Assembly: GCA_913061265.1 (NCBI GenBank)
Contig: CAJXVS010000002.1
Span: 310,001-374,000 of the forward strand
Origin: an uncultured Halobacteriovorax sp.
GTDB lineage: Bacteria > Bdellovibrionota > Bacteriovoracia > Bacteriovoracales > Bacteriovoracaceae
Length of the DNA stretch: 64,000 nt
Reading direction: 5' to 3'
Below the pieces are notes generated by a model. The model ran no database searches, was not told the origin of the DNA, and was given only the letters and a program-made list of their open reading frames with translations. The translations under genes and the position numbers were made by a program. Below are positions 2,397 through 15,598 of the stretch, piece by piece (within the stretch, counting starts at the first letter, position 1; every line of letters begins with the position of its first letter).

Positions 2397-3778
2397 CTCA
2401 AGGTCTCCTTAATCTTAATAGGCATTCCCTTATGAGGCTTTAAGCTGACATGAGAGACTGCTCTTGGAAGCTCGGTGCCTATTAACTCTAGTTCAAAACT
2501 TAAAAGAACCTTTGAGACAATAATGGCGACTTCAATTAAAGAAAAATTCTCTCCAACACAGCGCCTCTCTCCCTTAGAGAAAGGGAGGTAATGATCTAAG
2601 CGGTTAACTTCAACACCCTCAAAGCGAGAGGGGTTAAAGACCAAAGGCTTATCCCAATGCTTTTCGCTTCTGTGAATATTCCAAACCGGAATCACCACAG
2701 AGGTATTAACAGGAACCTTTTGGCCGTTAAAGCTATCTTCTTTAAGATTTCTTCGAGAAGACATGGGGATGGCCGTATACATTCTGATCCCTTCTAGAAT
2801 GACTTGATAGAGATAGGGATGAGTGGTCTTAAAGTTGATAGAGGTTATCTCCTCTGGACTCTCTTGAAGTTCCTGCCTAAGCCTATCTTGAACCTCAGGA
2901 TGCTTTGATAAAAGGCCAAAGATCCAAGAAAGTGTATTAGAAGTTGTTTCATACCCAGCGATCAAAAGAGTGATGACTTCATCGCGAAGCTCTTGGTCAC
3001 TAAGACCAACGCCTGTTTCAGGATTCTTTGCATAAACTAATCTTTGCAGGATACTCCGAGCGCTGCTCTCATTAGAGTTTTCTTTTTCTTGAGCTAATAG
3101 GCGCGAGACAATAGAGGAGAGGTTGTTATTATGAAAATGAAATTCTTTGTTTTTCTTTGTGGGAACCCAATAAGGCAGGGGAAAGAGTTCGAACATATGA
3201 TCGTGGGCCATCTTAGAAGTAAAGAGAACCGCCTCGTCAACAATCCTGGCATCTTCATTAGTAAGATCAGATCCGAGGAGGGTCTTTCCGGCAATGGCAA
3301 AGGTGAGGTTTCTCATCTCAAGAGAGAAGTCTAACTCAGCACTCTCTTGTGACTTCCATTTTTTTACCAATTGAAGAGTTAAGTCATCAATGATTTTTGA
3401 AAAGAGAGCGATTGGCGCGGGTCCTAGCTCTTTAGAGACAATGATCCTACTTCTTAACCAAGAGGTTCTGTCGTTATTAGTAACAAGACCTTCACCCATA
3501 ACAACTTTCATCTCATCAGTTTGAGCTCCCTTAACGTAGATCTTATTCTTGTCACCAAGAACTTGCTTAATTAGTTTTGGGCAGTAGATGATGATAGTAT
3601 TGATGGGCCAGCCATAGCTCGCAATTTCTCCGAACTGCTTCTCTGTTTCTTCGAGGGCGCCTAGGCTATCTCGTTTAAAATGAAACATAAGCTTGATGAA
3701 ATTAAGGCCTCTAGGTCCTTTGATATGCCTTATGCCGGAGAGGCTAAGTTTACTTCGCATATCTTTTAGAAACTGCAT
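2393..3778 (-). CDS. Cytochrome P450 monooxygenase
   Basis: A 461-residue haem-thiolate monooxygenase. From the chosen start, the I-helix motif AGYETTS is at about 274-280, the K-helix ExxR (EGIR) at 329-332, and the haem loop FSKGERRCVG contains the cysteine ligand at about 407. These three motifs together are diagnostic. The length and ETTS motif fit class-II-like bacterial P450s that hydroxylate fatty acids or hydrophobic compounds; redox partners are not encoded nearby. The start at 3778 is chosen because its ATG overlaps the desaturase stop as TAATG; the frame is also open to an ATG at 3802. The neighbouring desaturase makes a lipid substrate plausible, but this is inference. Confidence 0.93.
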   Translation of the reverse strand: MQFLKDMRSKLSLSGIRHIKGPRGLNFIKLMFHFKRDSLGALEETEKQFGEIASYGWPINTIIIYCPKLIKQVLGDKNKIYVKGAQTDEMKVVMGEGLVTNNDRTSWLRSRIIVSKELGPAPIALFSKIIDDLTLQLVKKWKSQESAELDFSLEMRNLTFAIAGKTLLGSDLTNEDARIVDEAVLFTSKMAHDHMFELFPLPYWVPTKKNKEFHFHNNNLSSIVSRLLAQEKENSNESSARSILQRLVYAKNPETGVGLSDQELRDEVITLLIAGYETTSNTLSWIFGLLSKHPEVQDRLRQELQESPEEITSINFKTTHPYLYQVILEGIRMYTAIPMSSRRNLKEDSFNGQKVPVNTSVVIPVWNIHRSEKHWDKPLVFNPSRFEGVEVNRLDHYLPFSKGERRCVGENFSLIEVAIIVSKVLLSFELELIGTELPRAVSHVSLKPHKGMPIKIKETLR

Positions 3779-4683
3779 TAAAGAGAGCCTTTTTCCTCCC
3801 AAACTCTGTCGAGATTAAAGTATTTTCTTAGTGAGGAATTATCTGGTTTTATTTCTAACTTAGATAGTGGCCCATTTATGCTGGCTTTTAAAGTCAGGAG
3901 TCTCTCTTTTTCATTATTTAACTTACGTGGGTCAAATAAACTGAGGTTTTGATGGTGATTTTTATGAAAATAGCCGCCCATGGTAACGAAGTTGGCCAAC
4001 TTATAATAGGCATTGTGGTTCATATTGAAGACCTCAACGGAGCCATCTTCTAAGTCTCTATGGCAAACATAATTGATATGGGCGAGGATGGCGATATTAC
4101 TTATAACTGCAGGGAGATAAAAAAAGAGAAAGAGCGCGGGACCAAAGATCATAAACCAGGCCATTAATCTTAGAACCATATTGGTATGAAAAACAAAACT
4201 TTGCAGTGCTAGGATCGTTTCATAGTTCTCAATATTCTGATGAGTATCTCTTAAAAATTCTTTTGTATTCTTAATCATGTATTTGTTAGGAGAGAGTAAG
4301 TATCTAGTAAAGCTCATTCCCCTCGGAGAGACAGGGTCATACTTATGATCGGAATAAAGGTGGTGTAAGGTATGTACTAAGATAAAATTATGAAAGCCAT
4401 AGCCAACGAAGTGACCGACAAATTCTCCAATCATTTTATTAACAGGACCCTTACTGACATTCTCATGACCGGCCTTATGTAAGAAGGCTGCAACAAGCCA
4501 ACCAAAAGGAATGGCCAAGGCAAAGGCCGCAAACAAGGCTGGGTGAAAATTGAATTCTAAATTTATATTTAAGAAGTAGAGAGCAAAGACCAGGGTGCCT
4601 AAAAAGAGCATATCTAATAAGTAATCCTTAAGTAGGAAATAAGGATCCTTTTTCATATGTTTAAAGACTTCAGCTGGTTTCAT
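3778..4683 (-). CDS. Membrane fatty-acid desaturase family protein
   Basis: About 301 residues with the three histidine clusters of di-iron membrane desaturases. Counting from the in-frame TTG at 4692, these are HKAGH at 72-76, HTLHH at 107-111 followed by H116, and HKNHH at 243-247. Hydrophobic segments flank them as in the family. The enzymes use O2 and an electron donor to introduce a double bond (or hydroxyl) in a membrane lipid chain. The ATG at 4683 is preferred over the TTG three codons upstream, though neither has a good Shine-Dalgarno. It is the first gene of the desaturase-P450-membrane-acyltransferase operon. The 112 bases upstream carry a TTCGTCAT motif at 4748-4755. Confidence 0.87.
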   Translation of the reverse strand: MKPAEVFKHMKKDPYFLLKDYLLDMLFLGTLVFALYFLNINLEFNFHPALFAAFALAIPFGWLVAAFLHKAGHENVSKGPVNKMIGEFVGHFVGYGFHNFILVHTLHHLYSDHKYDPVSPRGMSFTRYLLSPNKYMIKNTKEFLRDTHQNIENYETILALQSFVFHTNMVLRLMAWFMIFGPALFLFFYLPAVISNIAILAHINYVCHRDLEDGSVEVFNMNHNAYYKLANFVTMGGYFHKNHHQNLSLFDPRKLNNEKERLLTLKASINGPLSKLEIKPDNSSLRKYFNLDRVWEEKGSL

Positions 4684-4795
4684 AAAGCGCAATCTAACTT
4701 AAAAAGACATTGTGAGGGCCTTTATTGAAATTAATTCATAGCGTTAATTCGTCATGAGTTAATCTATCTAAGTGATTGAATTTATGAGAAAAAAC

Positions 4796-6964
4796 CTATG
4801 ATCTGGCCCGTTGTAGCTTCTGGTAGCTCTCAATAAGCTTAAGCTGCTTATCAAGCCCTTCAAGTTTCGTACTCGTTTTAGAGAGACCTAGGAAGCGTAC
4901 TTCTCCGCTTAAAGTCTTAACCGCATTATCCATGACTTCAGATCCAAACATCCTGGTCATATTAGGAAGGTAATCCTCTAAGCTTAATTCGTCCTCAAGC
5001 TCTATATCTAAAAGAGCAGAGAGGGCGCGGTAATAACTTTTACGTTCGGTTGAATTTTCATTAAAGGTTAAGAGAACATCAACTAAGTCTTTGGCCTCTT
5101 CAAATCTTTTAACAGATAAGAGGCATAGGGTCTTAAGCTCGCCAATATTAAGCTGTCCCCAGTAGGAGTTCTCATCAAACTCTATTCCTATTAACTCCGA
5201 GATCTTTGTGTAGTCATCAATCTCACTCTCTTCAAGATTAAGAATTAAATTCTCTATTTTTTCATCAGTCAAAGAATGAAGGTTAAGGATATCTTCTCTA
5301 AAAGAAAGCGCCTTATTGTGATTATCCCAGATAAGATCTTCAGCAGGATAGATCTCTGAATAATCAGGAACTAAGATCCTACAGGCCTTGGCTCCAAGCT
5401 CTTCGTAGTCTGCTATATAAACTTCTTTTTCAAGTTGGTTTAAGATCTTCATTAAGTAATTGTATTCTTCTTCTGTAGATCCAGAGAAGTCCCACTTTGA
5501 GAATTCATAATCTGCTTTCTCACTAAAGAACTTCCAAGAGATAACACCTGTTGAATCAATAAAATGATCAACAATATTATTGGGTTCACTTACAGCGAAG
5601 GAATTAAAAGTAGGAGGAAGAACATCGTTAAGTCCTTCAAAACTTCTTCCTTGTAATAACTCCGTTAAGCTTCTCTCTAAGGCCACTTCAAACTTAGGGT
5701 GGGCTCCAAACGAAGCGAACACTCCTCCATTTCTGGGGTTCATTAAGGTCACGCACATGACGGGAAACTTTCCGCCTAAAGAGGCGTCTTTAACCACGAT
5801 AGGAAAACCGGCTTCTTCAAGTTTATTGATGCCTTCTAGAATTGTTGGGTAGCTCTCTAAGACTGATCTTGGAACTTCAGGAAGAGTGATCTCTTCAATG
5901 ATGATTTGATTCTTAACGGCTCTTTCAAAGATCTCTGATAAACACTGAACTCTAGCTTCAAACTTTGTGTTCCCAGCGCTCATGCCATTACTGACAAAGA
6001 TATTGCCAATTAAGTTAACAGGAATGTAGACAGTCTCTTGGTCAGACTGGCGAACATAAGGAAGAGCGCAGATACCGCGCTCCGTATTTCCTGAGTTGGT
6101 ATCAGTTAAGTGAGAAGCTTTTAATTCATTCTCAGGGTTATAGACTTCAAGAAACCTCTTATCCATAAGTCCCATTGGCAATTCATCATCTTTGGATTTA
6201 AACCACTTCTCATTTGGATAATGAACAAATTCAGCCTTACTGATTTCTTCACCTAGATAATAATCATTATAGAAATAGTTATTACTTATTCTCTCTAAGT
6301 ATTCCCCGAGAGCAGAACAAAGAGCGGCGTCTTTAGTCGCTCCTTTTCCATTTGAAAAACACATAGGAGAGTCAGCGTCTCTAATATGAACTGACCAGAC
6401 ATGAGGAACTTGATTCCTCCATGAAGCGATCTCAATATTGATGCCTAGATTTCCTAAGAGAGCAGACATATTCTTAATCGTCTCTTCTAAGGAGCAATCC
6501 TTTCCTAGGATCATTGTCTTAGTCTTATCATCTTTTGAATGCTCATAGATTAGACCTGATTCTTTTCCAAGAACATTAACTGTCTCAATCTTAAATTCTG
6601 GTTTTGTCTGAACAACTTTCTTTACCGTACAACGGTCAATGGATCTTAAGATTCCTTGACGGTCATGTTCGCTAATACTCTCAGGAAGCTCTACTTGAAT
6701 ATTGAAGATTTGATTGTAGCGGTTTTCTGGATCAATAATATTGTTTTGAGTTAGCTTGATATCTTCAGTAGGGATGTCTCTTGCCTTACAATAAACCTTA
6801 ACAAAGTAGGCAGCACATAAAGCAGAGGAGGCCAAAAAGTAGTCAAAAGGGCTAGGAGCGGTTCCATCGCCTTTATAACGGATGGGCTGATCAGTATAAA
6901 TACTGAAATCATCAAAGTTGGCTTCGAGCCTTAAATTCTCTAAAAATCGGACGTTTACTTGCAT
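4796..6964 (-). CDS. ycaO: OsmC domain-YcaO domain fusion protein
   Basis: A 722-residue two-domain protein. Residues 1-135 are an OsmC/Ohr-like domain with the paired cysteines C50 (in SSALCAAY) and C112 (in RCTVKK) that in this family reduce organic hydroperoxides. Residues about 150-720 match E. coli YcaO along its whole length, including WSVHIRD, NGKGATK, SALGEYLER, NGMSAGNT, TELLQGR and the TPR-like C-terminus ending in YQKLQRA. E. coli YcaO enhances RimO-dependent beta-methylthiolation of ribosomal protein S12; other YcaO proteins are ATP-dependent cyclodehydratases. Here the full-length YcaO makes the S12-type role likelier than RiPP biosynthesis, and no precursor peptide gene is visible. 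OsmC-YcaO fusions are a known architecture. It follows the MAPEG gene by 60 bases. Confidence 0.93.
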   Translation of the reverse strand: MQVNVRFLENLRLEANFDDFSIYTDQPIRYKGDGTAPSPFDYFLASSALCAAYFVKVYCKARDIPTEDIKLTQNNIIDPENRYNQIFNIQVELPESISEHDRQGILRSIDRCTVKKVVQTKPEFKIETVNVLGKESGLIYEHSKDDKTKTMILGKDCSLEETIKNMSALLGNLGINIEIASWRNQVPHVWSVHIRDADSPMCFSNGKGATKDAALCSALGEYLERISNNYFYNDYYLGEEISKAEFVHYPNEKWFKSKDDELPMGLMDKRFLEVYNPENELKASHLTDTNSGNTERGICALPYVRQSDQETVYIPVNLIGNIFVSNGMSAGNTKFEARVQCLSEIFERAVKNQIIIEEITLPEVPRSVLESYPTILEGINKLEEAGFPIVVKDASLGGKFPVMCVTLMNPRNGGVFASFGAHPKFEVALERSLTELLQGRSFEGLNDVLPPTFNSFAVSEPNNIVDHFIDSTGVISWKFFSEKADYEFSKWDFSGSTEEEYNYLMKILNQLEKEVYIADYEELGAKACRILVPDYSEIYPAEDLIWDNHNKALSFREDILNLHSLTDEKIENLILNLEESEIDDYTKISELIGIEFDENSYWGQLNIGELKTLCLLSVKRFEEAKDLVDVLLTFNENSTERKSYYRALSALLDIELEDELSLEDYLPNMTRMFGSEVMDNAVKTLSGEVRFLGLSKTSTKLEGLDKQLKLIESYQKLQRARS

Positions 6965-12732: not shown

Positions 12733-12747
12733 CACAACTTAATTGTG
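12733..12747. promoter_or_regulatory. Candidate OhrR operator
   Basis: CACAACTTAATTGTG is an inverted repeat of CACAA and TTGTG around an AT-rich centre. The ACAA-N5-TTGT symmetry and AT core resemble the known OhrR/OhrA operators (TACAATT/AATTGTA type). It sits 25 bases before the regulator's first possible start and within the shared chrA/ohrR region, a position suited to autorepression. Another motif, TTCGTCAT, lies just upstream at 12715-12722. The assignment rests on similarity and position only. Confidence 0.55.
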
Positions 12748-12772
12748 GTGCTAGTTTCTGGCCCTACGAGGA

Positions 12773-13273
12773 ATGTCCCTCTTTTTTGGTGCTTTTATGA
12801 CGATTGAAGTGAAGATTGAAGACGCCTTATGTTTTAACTTGTACTCCGCCTCTCGGGCCATGACTCAAGTGTATAGGCCTTATCTAACAAAACTAGGACT
12901 TACCTATCCCCAGTTTCTTGTCATGCTTCTACTTTGGGAGAAAACGAGTGAGAAATTGAGCGTCAAAGATCTTGGGAAAAGACTTCATCTAGATTCTGGA
13001 ACTCTGACTCCTTTATTAAAAAGGCTAGAAGGGAATGAACTCTTAGAGCGCGCCCGATCAACAAAAGATGAAAGAGAAGTAAATGTTAAGCTGACAAGAA
13101 AAGGCAAGAGCCTAGAGAAGAAGTGCAGTGATATCCCCATGGAGATGTTTTGTAACTTAAAAGTGAATATGGACGAGTTTGTCGAAGTTCGCGACGGAGT
13201 GGCAAAGATTCTTGAAAACCTAAATGAAAAACTTAGCGAGTTCAAAAAAACTCAATTAAAGGCAATACAATGA
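12773..13273 (+). CDS. ohrR: MarR-family organic-peroxide-sensing regulator, OhrR-like
   Basis: A 166-residue MarR-family protein close to Bacillus OhrR. It has the sensor segment DALCFNLYSASRAMT with the reactive Cys (C20 from this start), LTYPQFLVMLLLWE, and the winged-helix recognition region LDSGTLTPLLKRLE with a following DEREV wing. OhrR represses target genes until its Cys is oxidised by organic hydroperoxide. The start is uncertain. The ATG at 12773 has GAGGA very close, while the in-frame ATG at 12797 gives a length like the family's but has no ribosome binding site. Unusually, no ohr peroxidase gene is adjacent. Instead its stop overlaps a type III polyketide synthase gene by four bases. 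Confidence 0.87.
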   Translation: MSLFFGAFMTIEVKIEDALCFNLYSASRAMTQVYRPYLTKLGLTYPQFLVMLLLWEKTSEKLSVKDLGKRLHLDSGTLTPLLKRLEGNELLERARSTKDEREVNVKLTRKGKSLEKKCSDIPMEMFCNLKVNMDEFVEVRDGVAKILENLNEKLSEFKKTQLKAIQ

Positions 13274-14370
13274 CAACAATAATTTCAGACTTTAAGATTC
13301 ATCAACCTTCTAATGAAGTAGCTCAAGATGAAGTCTCTCATTGGATGGCAAAGGTTCAATCCATTGCCACGGCAGAGACCTTCGACGAAAGGATCATTAA
13401 AAAGTTTGCTGTAAAAGAAGATAGGATCACAAAGAGGTCATTCTTTTGCAGGGACTTTGGAAATCTCGATGTCATGAACAACGAACTCTTTACCATTGAA
13501 AATAACTTCTCTCCTAATCTTCGAGAGAGATCAGAGTTTTATCAGAGAACTGTTGATAAGGTCTTTAACTCTTTCTTTGAAGATAAAGAAGACGCCCCAG
13601 AAGAGATCCTTCATGTCTCCTGCACAGGATATGTTTCTCCTAGTGCCGGTCAAAAGATCATCCCTAAGAATGAATGGTCCGACAAAACAGGAATCACTCA
13701 TCTTTATCATATGGGTTGCTACGCAGCTATGCCGGCTATCAAAGTGGCTAAAGGCATGACTGATAAGAAGCGAGTGGATATTGTTCATACAGAGATCTGC
13801 TCAAATCACTTTAACGTGACGGCACAATCTCCAGAACAAACTGTGGTTCAGACTTTGTTTGCTGATGGCGCTATTAAATACTCAGTTGACCCTAATGCTA
13901 ACGTAGGTACATTTCAGGGAAATGGAATCAATGTGCTTAAGATGAAAGAGAAGATCATCCCTGGCTCTGAAGAGGCCATGACTTGGGGCTTTGGAGAGAA
14001 TAATCTTGAAATGACTCTTCATAGAACTGTTCCAAGAATTATCAAAGAAAACTTAAAGAATTATACAGTCGAGCTTTTCAAAAGTGCCGGGCTTGATTAC
14101 GAAAAAGATAAAGATTCAACTATTTTTGCCATCCACCCTGGTGGACCAAAGATCATTGAACAGATCATGGGCCTTCTTGAACTAACTGATGAGCAAGTCT
14201 CTTATTCAAATGCCGTTTTAAAAGATAGAGGAAATATGTCTTCAGCGACTCTTCCTCATGTTTGGAAAAGGATTATTGAAGATAAGGATGTAGCGAAGGG
14301 AACTAAGATCTTTAGTGTTGCCTTTGGCCCTGGTCTTACTGTGGCAGGTTTTGTTGGAGAAAAAGTATGA
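13270..14370 (+). CDS. Type III polyketide synthase (chalcone/stilbene synthase-like)
   Basis: A 366-residue type III PKS with the full Cys-His-Asn triad: C150 in HMGCYAAMPA, H289 in AIHPGGPK and N322 in GNMSSAT. Length is typical. These enzymes condense malonyl-CoA onto an acyl-CoA starter and cyclise the chain to alkylpyrones or alkylresorcinols. The start overlaps the OhrR stop as ATGA, with AAAGG upstream. The following membrane protein and UbiG-like methyltransferase fit production of a methylated phenolic lipid or pyrone, as in other bacterial PKS-methyltransferase pairs (for example srsA-srsB). Starter chain length and product cannot be read from the sequence. Coupling to OhrR suggests induction by lipid peroxides. 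Confidence 0.93.
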   Translation: MTTIISDFKIHQPSNEVAQDEVSHWMAKVQSIATAETFDERIIKKFAVKEDRITKRSFFCRDFGNLDVMNNELFTIENNFSPNLRERSEFYQRTVDKVFNSFFEDKEDAPEEILHVSCTGYVSPSAGQKIIPKNEWSDKTGITHLYHMGCYAAMPAIKVAKGMTDKKRVDIVHTEICSNHFNVTAQSPEQTVVQTLFADGAIKYSVDPNANVGTFQGNGINVLKMKEKIIPGSEEAMTWGFGENNLEMTLHRTVPRIIKENLKNYTVELFKSAGLDYEKDKDSTIFAIHPGGPKIIEQIMGLLELTDEQVSYSNAVLKDRGNMSSATLPHVWKRIIEDKDVAKGTKIFSVAFGPGLTVAGFVGEKV

Positions 14371-14909
14371 GCCTAGGGTTAATCCTACTCATATTTCCTT
14401 TTATCCTTCAGGCAGGAGCTACTTTCTTTGATGAGTTTTACTTTCATCATAAAAGAGGCCTTCCTTTATGGGAGAGGCTAGGTCATCCGCTTGATACTAT
14501 GACTGTTTTGGCCTGTTTTTCTTTTGTTTTATTTGTAGAGCCAAGTAAAACAAACTTGATCATTTATATTGGTCTGGCCTTATTTTCATGCCTCTTTATT
14601 ACAAAAGATGAATTCATTCATCATGAAGAATCTCCTGCAGCTGAACAATGGCTTCATTCGGTTCTTTTTGTTCTTCATCCAATAACTTTATTATCACTAT
14701 CCCTTTATTGGTTTGAAACACTGACTTCAAACCTCCTTCTGAGCGGAGAGCACGAGCTTTTTCAGAGCTTTATTAAAGGGCAGTTTTTAATCACAATTAT
14801 ATTTCTCACTTATCAAATACTATATTGGAGCATACCGTGGAAAAAGTTCTTTCAGGCAAAACACCAGTCAACAACGACTACTACCACCACCTCGGAGAAG
14901 ATTGGTTAA
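14367..14909 (+). CDS. Membrane protein of the PKS operon, unknown function
   Basis: A 180-residue protein with four to five hydrophobic helices and several conserved-looking charged motifs: FFDEFYFHHKRG near residue 20, LGHPLDTM near 38, and KDEFIHHEE near 74 with a nearby EQWLH. The His/Asp/Glu clusters between helices could bind metal or a polar head group, but I do not recognise the family. The ATG overlaps the PKS stop by four bases with GGAG upstream. Its last 70 or so bases overlap the methyltransferase gene in another frame, which explains the unusual Thr-rich tail. It probably acts on or transports the polyketide product. Confidence 0.75.
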   Translation: MSLGLILLIFPFILQAGATFFDEFYFHHKRGLPLWERLGHPLDTMTVLACFSFVLFVEPSKTNLIIYIGLALFSCLFITKDEFIHHEESPAAEQWLHSVLFVLHPITLLSLSLYWFETLTSNLLLSGEHELFQSFIKGQFLITIIFLTYQILYWSIPWKKFFQAKHQSTTTTTTTSEKIG

Positions 14910-15598
14910 TTGCTAATGATGATCCGATTGCTCTTCTTAGAGCAGAGAGTAAATTAAAGAACCCTTGGGTTCTTGAGACGATAGAAAAAGAATTAGGCGA
15001 AGGATCTAAAAAGGTCTTAGATATAGGTTGCGGCGCTGGCTTTTTAAGTAATGCCATGGCCCTAAGTAAACATGAAGTTAGTGGAATTGATATGTCTGAA
15101 GAGAGCTTAAAGATTGCTCGCAAGTATGACACAACAAAGACGGCAAACTACCTGTACGGCAACGCCTATGAACTACCTTTTGAAGATAATCAATTTGACG
15201 CTGTTTGCGCCATGGATTTCTTAGAGCATGTCGAAGAACCTGAAAGAGTGGTGGCAGAGGCGAGCCGGGTCTTAAAGCCTAATGGAATCTTCTTCTTTCA
15301 TACCTTTAGCAAGAATATCCTCGCTTACTTTGTCATCATTAAGTTAGTTGAATGGTTCTTACCTAAGACGCCAAAACATATGCATATCTTAAGACTCTTC
15401 ATCTCGCCTAAAGAATTAGACAAGATGAATAAGCTAGCAAAACTAAAGACAATTCATATGATGGGGATCAGACCAAACTTTGGAGAGCTTCCTTTTTGGA
15501 AATCACTCTTTAAGCGAGAAGTTCATCCAGAGTTTCGATTTAGCTTTACTAAATCGACGCTTCTCTCCTATATCGGCTATGCCAAAAAAATGGATTAG
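14837..15598 (+). CDS. SAM-dependent methyltransferase, UbiG-like
   Basis: About 253 residues. The SAM-binding motif I VLDIGCGAGFLS is near residue 60, with motif II around GIDMSEESL and the post-motif FDAVCAMDFLEH. The layout and later half resemble UbiG 3-O-methyltransferases of ubiquinone synthesis. GTG at 14837 is chosen because GGAG lies six bases upstream; a TTG four codons earlier is the alternative. Either start lies inside the preceding gene, so translation is coupled. As the last gene of the OhrR-PKS operon it most likely O-methylates the polyketide ring. No other ubiquinone genes are nearby. Its stop interlocks with that of the convergent antiporter gene. Confidence 0.87.
   Translation: MEKVLSGKTPVNNDYYHHLGEDWLIANDDPIALLRAESKLKNPWVLETIEKELGEGSKKVLDIGCGAGFLSNAMALSKHEVSGIDMSEESLKIARKYDTTKTANYLYGNAYELPFEDNQFDAVCAMDFLEHVEEPERVVAEASRVLKPNGIFFFHTFSKNILAYFVIIKLVEWFLPKTPKHMHILRLFISPKELDKMNKLAKLKTIHMMGIRPNFGELPFWKSLFKREVHPEFRFSFTKSTLLSYIGYAKKMD

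Follow-up and report, generated by a model that had tools for sequence, protein, structure and literature searches.

We identify a widespread, previously undescribed gene cassette composed of a type III polyketide synthase (PKS), a small membrane protein and a UbiG-like methyltransferase, and a lineage-specific version of it, found only in this genome of a Halobacteriovorax-like bacterium, that is headed by an OhrR-type regulator. The best explanation of the ohrR-headed version, to which we assign a probability of about one half, is an autoregulated, peroxide-controlled four-gene operon for synthesis of a polyketide-quinone-like membrane lipid.

The ohrR-headed block and its probable control

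The four genes lie head to tail in the order ohrR, type III PKS, small membrane protein and UbiG-like methyltransferase, preceded by a putative operator, within the 64-kb window (the whole stretch of DNA that was analysed):

12733..12747, no strand assigned: OhrR-box-like operator CACAACTTAATTGTG, with core ACAACTTAATTGT at 12734-12746
12797..13273, + strand: ohrR, OhrR-type MarR regulator, 158 aa (from PDB sequence matches, Pfam MarR and residues)
13270..14370, + strand: type III polyketide synthase, 366 aa (from ArsC 3vs9/3vs8, Pfam Chal_sti_synt_C and W239)
14367..14909, + strand: small membrane protein, 180 aa, five long helices (from alignment and AlphaFold model)
14837..15598, + strand: UbiG-like SAM methyltransferase, ~253 aa (from TIGR01983 UbiG score)

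The coordinates bear out the gene order and overlapping starts of the original prediction. An ATGA at 13270-13273 is common to the end of ohrR and the start of the PKS gene, a second ATGA at 14367-14370 joins the PKS gene to the membrane-protein gene in the same way, and the membrane-protein and methyltransferase genes overlap by 73 nt if translation of the latter begins at GTG 14837, a start placed by comparison with relatives, or by 85 nt from TTG 14825, where the open reading frame itself opens. An in-frame ATG at 12773 provides an alternative ohrR start. The G+C content of the four-gene block is 37–40%, compared with 38.7% for the window, and the host genome is 3.97 Mb in size with a completeness of 99.75%.

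The best PDB sequence matches of the regulator are the OhrR structures 2pfb, 2pex and 1z91 (E 1e-33 to 1e-34; 2pfb from Xanthomonas, 1z91 from Bacillus), and the protein contains a winged-helix MarR domain (Pfam MarR, 60 bits). The sensor cysteine that had been proposed is present as C12, which aligns with sensor Cys22 of Xanthomonas campestris OhrR (XcOhrR), and C119 is the counterpart of resolving Cys127, residues with these roles in the two-Cys OhrR class (PMC6034001). The conserved OhrR tyrosines are likewise present as Y16 and Y26. The regulator scored 166.7 bits against the NCBIfam OhrR equivalog NF052638, below its cut-off of 200, and as this model describes a narrower, Vibrio-type group the miss denies membership in that group only.

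An OsmC-family profile search revealed no ohr gene adjoining the operon, as originally noted, and none anywhere in the 99.75% complete genome, where the sole OsmC-family match is an OsmC-YcaO protein at 4796-6964. Neither Ohr nor another peroxidase gene is attached to the operon, and the glutathione peroxidase (GPx) matches of the host genome are located elsewhere. As read from sequence, the OhrR homologues of four family members (G011, G013, G004 and G010) adjoin GPx-like genes. The OsmC-YcaO protein, encoded on the minus strand of the window, matches TIGR03549 with 1243 bits and has genes for a P450 (2393-3802) and a fatty acid desaturase (3778-4692) alongside; in G010 (L041) a homologue with 74% identity lies ~4 kb from the PKS cassette, possibly by chance.

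Sequence matching places the putative OhrR box core 50 nt upstream of ohrR. Position 12733, at which the originally noted region begins, is the palindrome's first base. The palindrome pattern CACAACTTAATTGTG occurs once in the window, compared with 0.03 occurrences expected in shuffles, and the combined pattern ACAAYTNAATTGT has one exact match in the 3.97 Mb genome, compared with four for a reversed control pattern. The site fits the published OhrR box ACAATTNAATTGT of Streptomyces avermitilis, where the Y position is C in one of the two sites, and its inner core CAACTNAATTG fits the published S. coelicolor box GCAACTNAATTGC. By the reversed-control rate, a chance match within the ~114–129 bp upstream region has a probability of ~1 in 10,000, a value that is only approximate because published boxes were merged into the pattern once the site was already known. 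A search for a sigma-70 promoter consensus around the box gave none. The divergent chromate transporter gene, which the box could serve as well, starts 66 nt from it. Allowing one mismatch yielded 37 matches in the genome and 95 for the reversed control, and thus no signal of a wider OhrR regulon; the upstream regions of GPx and OhrR genes in relatives contain imperfect OhrR-box matches only. Control of this operon by its own OhrR is nevertheless likely, because the box stands 50 nt before ohrR as the only exact copy in the genome and the genome encodes no Ohr. The coupling of a peroxide sensor to a PKS, the central claim of the original prediction, is in this way well supported at this locus by the OhrR box, the regulator's cysteines, the lack of any Ohr and the overlap of the genes, but it is not conserved.

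The three-gene cassette across phyla

Relatives, the order (37 of 129 genomes) and named genomes all supplied PKS homologues, which gave 97 other loci once duplicates had been removed. Among these, the membrane protein is encoded at 81 loci, the methyltransferase at 78 and both at 73, with neither partner at 11; at 11 loci the membrane protein and methyltransferase are fused into one protein. Record titles assign cassette loci to Bdellovibrionota, Acidobacteriota, Myxococcota, Chlamydiota, Fibrobacterota and others. Within the order, 35 genomes match the membrane protein strongly and 34 of them also have the PKS, the match in the remaining one lying at a contig end; the membrane protein is present in 34 of 37 PKS genomes, the three exceptions forming one genus. 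Comparison of the 97 neighbourhoods revealed no further conserved neighbour, and the PKS, membrane protein and methyltransferase together are the conserved unit here.

Several loci depart from this layout. In the genus without the membrane protein, a UbiA prenyltransferase-family gene overlaps the end of the PKS–methyltransferase pair (L042:5583-6476, L149:3362-4120, L153:3346-4119), and one locus without the membrane protein has an FAD monooxygenase gene and a YceI gene upstream. In Bdellovibrio loci without the methyltransferase, a gene for an NDH-2-like protein (type II NADH dehydrogenase) lies directly upstream of the PKS–membrane protein pair (L139:4617-5924, L141:4640-5947). The cultivable Bdellovibrio bacteriovorus encodes both the PKS and the membrane protein.

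Conservation of the ohrR–PKS adjacency in relatives had been named at the outset as the check on the proposed coupling, and the adjacency is not kept. An OhrR/MarR gene near the PKS was found at 0 of the 97 other distinct loci (both strands, ~6.5 kb, as far as sequence reaches), and when 56 other nearest upstream genes were scanned with Pfam, none matched MarR. The chromate transporter and antiporter genes that flank the operon lie ~1.8 kb apart in both congeneric genomes, with the block missing between them, and one congener carries the PKS–membrane protein–methyltransferase genes at another site without ohrR. In both congeners (L183 and L184) the transporter and antiporter genes are convergent with small genes between, and thus gene order and orientation have been rearranged where the operon now sits. 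We reject a conserved OhrR–PKS coupling on these counts; the OhrR link is lineage-specific and the cassette independent of OhrR. Because the link occurs in a single genome among about 98 loci, there is no way to show that it is under selection.

This distribution invites a reading in which an ohrR gene with its own operator landed before a moving cassette by accident and acts mainly in self-repression, with the PKS genes read through. The restriction of ohrR–PKS to this genome fits such a history, as do the congeners that have the flanking genes without the block or the cassette elsewhere, and so does the regulator itself, which is slightly closer to plasmid-borne proteins (46–50% identity) than to proteins of its own family (44%). 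We consider accidental adjacency somewhat unlikely all the same, since, barring an internal promoter, the 4-nt ATGA overlap necessarily places the PKS gene under transcription from the OhrR box and couples it translationally to ohrR, and since the missing Ohr leaves no other obvious target for OhrR.

The predicted product and the small membrane protein

The closest solved structure to the PKS is ArsC (3vs9, E 1e-73; 3vs8, E 1e-71), and the protein contains Pfam Chal_sti_synt_C. The predicted catalytic triad is confirmed as C150/H289/N322 and is invariant in 110 of 110 relatives. Residue W239 occupies the position of ArsB W281 and ArsC G284, and all 110 homologues have Trp there. The exchanges ArsB W281G and ArsC G284W alter cyclisation between pyrone and resorcinol (PMC6274091), and the same Trp has served as a predictor of resorcinol formation for the PKSs of polyketide-quinone operons (PMC9927152). 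On this sequence basis, the PKS product is best predicted to be an alkylresorcinol. The original proposal of a phenolic lipid or alkylpyrone is thereby narrowed: the phenolic lipid is favoured, whereas an alkylpyrone as main product is disfavoured by the invariant ArsB-type Trp where ArsC has Gly. The end product is no less likely to be a redox-active quinone than an antioxidant phenolic lipid, and it may have a redox or protective role. The methyltransferase scores 127.7 bits against TIGR01983 UbiG (cut-off 102.95) and is the sole protein in the genome above that cut-off; a UbiG-like similarity of this kind does not by itself fix the methylation site.

The small membrane protein lacks a characterised homologue, with no Pfam, NCBIfam or PHROG family match and no PDB sequence match. 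Its AlphaFold model is confident (pLDDT 91, pTM 0.83) and consists of five long helices, and a Foldseek fold search with it returned no significant match (best E 0.62). The best VIA-align hits, to bestrophin helices (Z 10.5, rmsd 3.4–4.1, 137–146 residues aligned), fall in the usual helical-bundle range and are uninformative. Alignment reveals invariant residues D22, E23, H27, E36, H40, D43, K80, D81, E82, H85, E93, H97 and H104, and in the model E23/H27, E36/H40, E82/H85, E93/H97 and H104 sit at the end of helix 1, the start of helix 2, the end of helix 3 and the start of helix 4. Because the helices alternate, these invariant Glu and His helix ends should share one membrane face, and C-terminal fusion to a cytosolic methyltransferase would make that face cytoplasmic. 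The residues suggest metal binding, and our best guess is that the protein serves as a metal-dependent hydroxylase in place of the oxidoreductase of srs, pkq and hid operons. Circumstantial support comes from the exceptional loci: the UbiA-family gene of the genus without the membrane protein and the FAD monooxygenase and YceI genes at one locus lacking that protein back the hydroxylase/quinone reading, and the NDH-2-like gene in the two Bdellovibrio loci would agree with a quinone product. The membrane protein also has divergent paralogues that stand alone (L212–L217); these share no neighbourhood and are without equivalents of H40 and H85.

The same protein could instead be a transporter, flippase or scaffold, with the operon making an O-methylated alkylresorcinol that serves as a structural membrane or envelope lipid and undergoes no ring hydroxylation. 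Its place in no recognised enzyme family agrees with this, and there is a precedent in Azotobacter cysts, where ArsB-type lipids take the place of phospholipids (PMC4824345). We judge a purely structural lipid unlikely, as Asp, Glu, His and Lys residues invariant across phyla point to catalysis or metal binding and fusion of the membrane protein to the methyltransferase at 11 loci fits consecutive enzymatic steps.

In the polyketide-quinone-like operon that we favour, reduced OhrR bound to the box at 12733-12747 would repress ohrR and the downstream genes. An organic (lipid) hydroperoxide would oxidise C12, and formation of a C12–C119 disulfide would then release OhrR and allow peroxide induction of the operon. 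The PKS would take a long-chain fatty acyl starter, condense it with malonyl-CoA and close the ring by aldol condensation to give a 5-alkylresorcinol. The ring would then be hydroxylated by the membrane protein, which is probably a metal-dependent hydroxylase acting at the cytoplasmic face of the membrane, and O-methylated by the UbiG-like enzyme. The predicted end product is a methoxylated alkyl-hydroquinone/quinone-type membrane lipid, a structure that depends on the putative hydroxylase activity.

A quinone end product raises the prospect that the regulator senses the product and not lipid peroxide. The MarR-family proteins QsrR, YodB and MhqR have cysteines that react with electrophilic quinones, and the cysteines of this OhrR might likewise react with the electrophilic quinone of its own operon to provide feedback. 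The predicted product type, the lack of an attached Ohr or other peroxidase gene and the position of the genome's only exact OhrR box at this operon are in keeping with quinone sensing. By sequence, however, the nearest relatives of the protein are true OhrR proteins, it keeps the two OhrR cysteines as well as the conserved tyrosines, and OhrR homologues in family members adjoin glutathione peroxidase genes, so that we regard a quinone sensor as improbable and retain peroxide control as the preferred reading.

In its broadest form, our proposal is that the membrane protein represents a new family of membrane metal-dependent aromatic hydroxylases, which together with the alkylresorcinol synthase and the UbiG-like methyltransferase makes a quinone lipid not seen before, respiratory or antioxidant in role, in organisms that include predatory bacteria, chlamydiae and acidobacteria; in this lineage the pathway would be under direct OhrR lipid-peroxide control. 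We advance this tentatively, as a possibility. If true, it would give an unnamed family of membrane proteins, found in several phyla including chlamydiae and Bdellovibrio, a function open to testing, add a way of making polyketide quinones that needs no flavin hydroxylase, and tie membrane peroxidation directly to remaking of the phenolic or quinone content of the membrane. What carries wider interest is the cassette, hitherto undescribed, and the unnamed membrane protein within it.

Comparison with known polyketide lipid operons and OhrR regulons

Searches of open-licence papers for OhrR with type III PKS, MarR with alkylpyrone, and type III PKS with UbiG and a membrane protein returned nothing relevant. 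Among the nearest described systems are the srs and pkq operons, in which a PKS, a methyltransferase and a hydroxylase or oxidoreductase produce alkylbenzoquinones (PMC9927152). Like pkqABC of Mycobacterium smegmatis and Streptomyces and srsABC of S. griseus, the cassette is a short operon that combines a PKS bearing the ArsB-type Trp with a methyltransferase and a third, putatively redox-type protein for a predicted alkylresorcinol-derived lipid. In contrast to those operons, the third gene here encodes a small unnamed membrane protein and not an oxidoreductase or hydroxylase, the methyltransferase is UbiG-like, and OhrR heads the operon. Membership in the pkq/srs class is defined by a PKS, a methyltransferase and a flavin oxidoreductase or hydroxylase, and the cassette contains no oxidoreductase gene; by this analogy it would work like the pkq/srs operons but is not classed as a member. 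The cyanobacterial hidABC and planctomycete type III PKS operons similarly comprise three genes and yield alkylresorcinols that are then methylated (PMC10896814), but their order is methyltransferase–oxidoreductase–PKS and they encode an FAD-dependent oxidoreductase of which the cassette has no equivalent.

Azotobacter vinelandii provides both the nearest solved PKS, ArsC, and an enzyme with the same Trp, ArsB. The Azotobacter ars operon also encodes a fatty acid synthase subunit, ArsA (PMC6274091), which is not so here. Conversely, no counterpart of the membrane protein/UbiG pair present here is described for that operon. ArsD is a further fatty acid synthase subunit of the ars operon.

On the regulatory side, the two-Cys OhrR and the OhrR box resemble those of the OhrR–Ohr regulons of Bacillus, Xanthomonas and Streptomyces. 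Unlike in those regulons, no Ohr is present here and the regulated genes would be for lipid biosynthesis; if this reading is true, the regulator would be, as far as the open-licence papers searched show, the first OhrR predicted to act mainly on lipid biosynthesis and not on a peroxidase.
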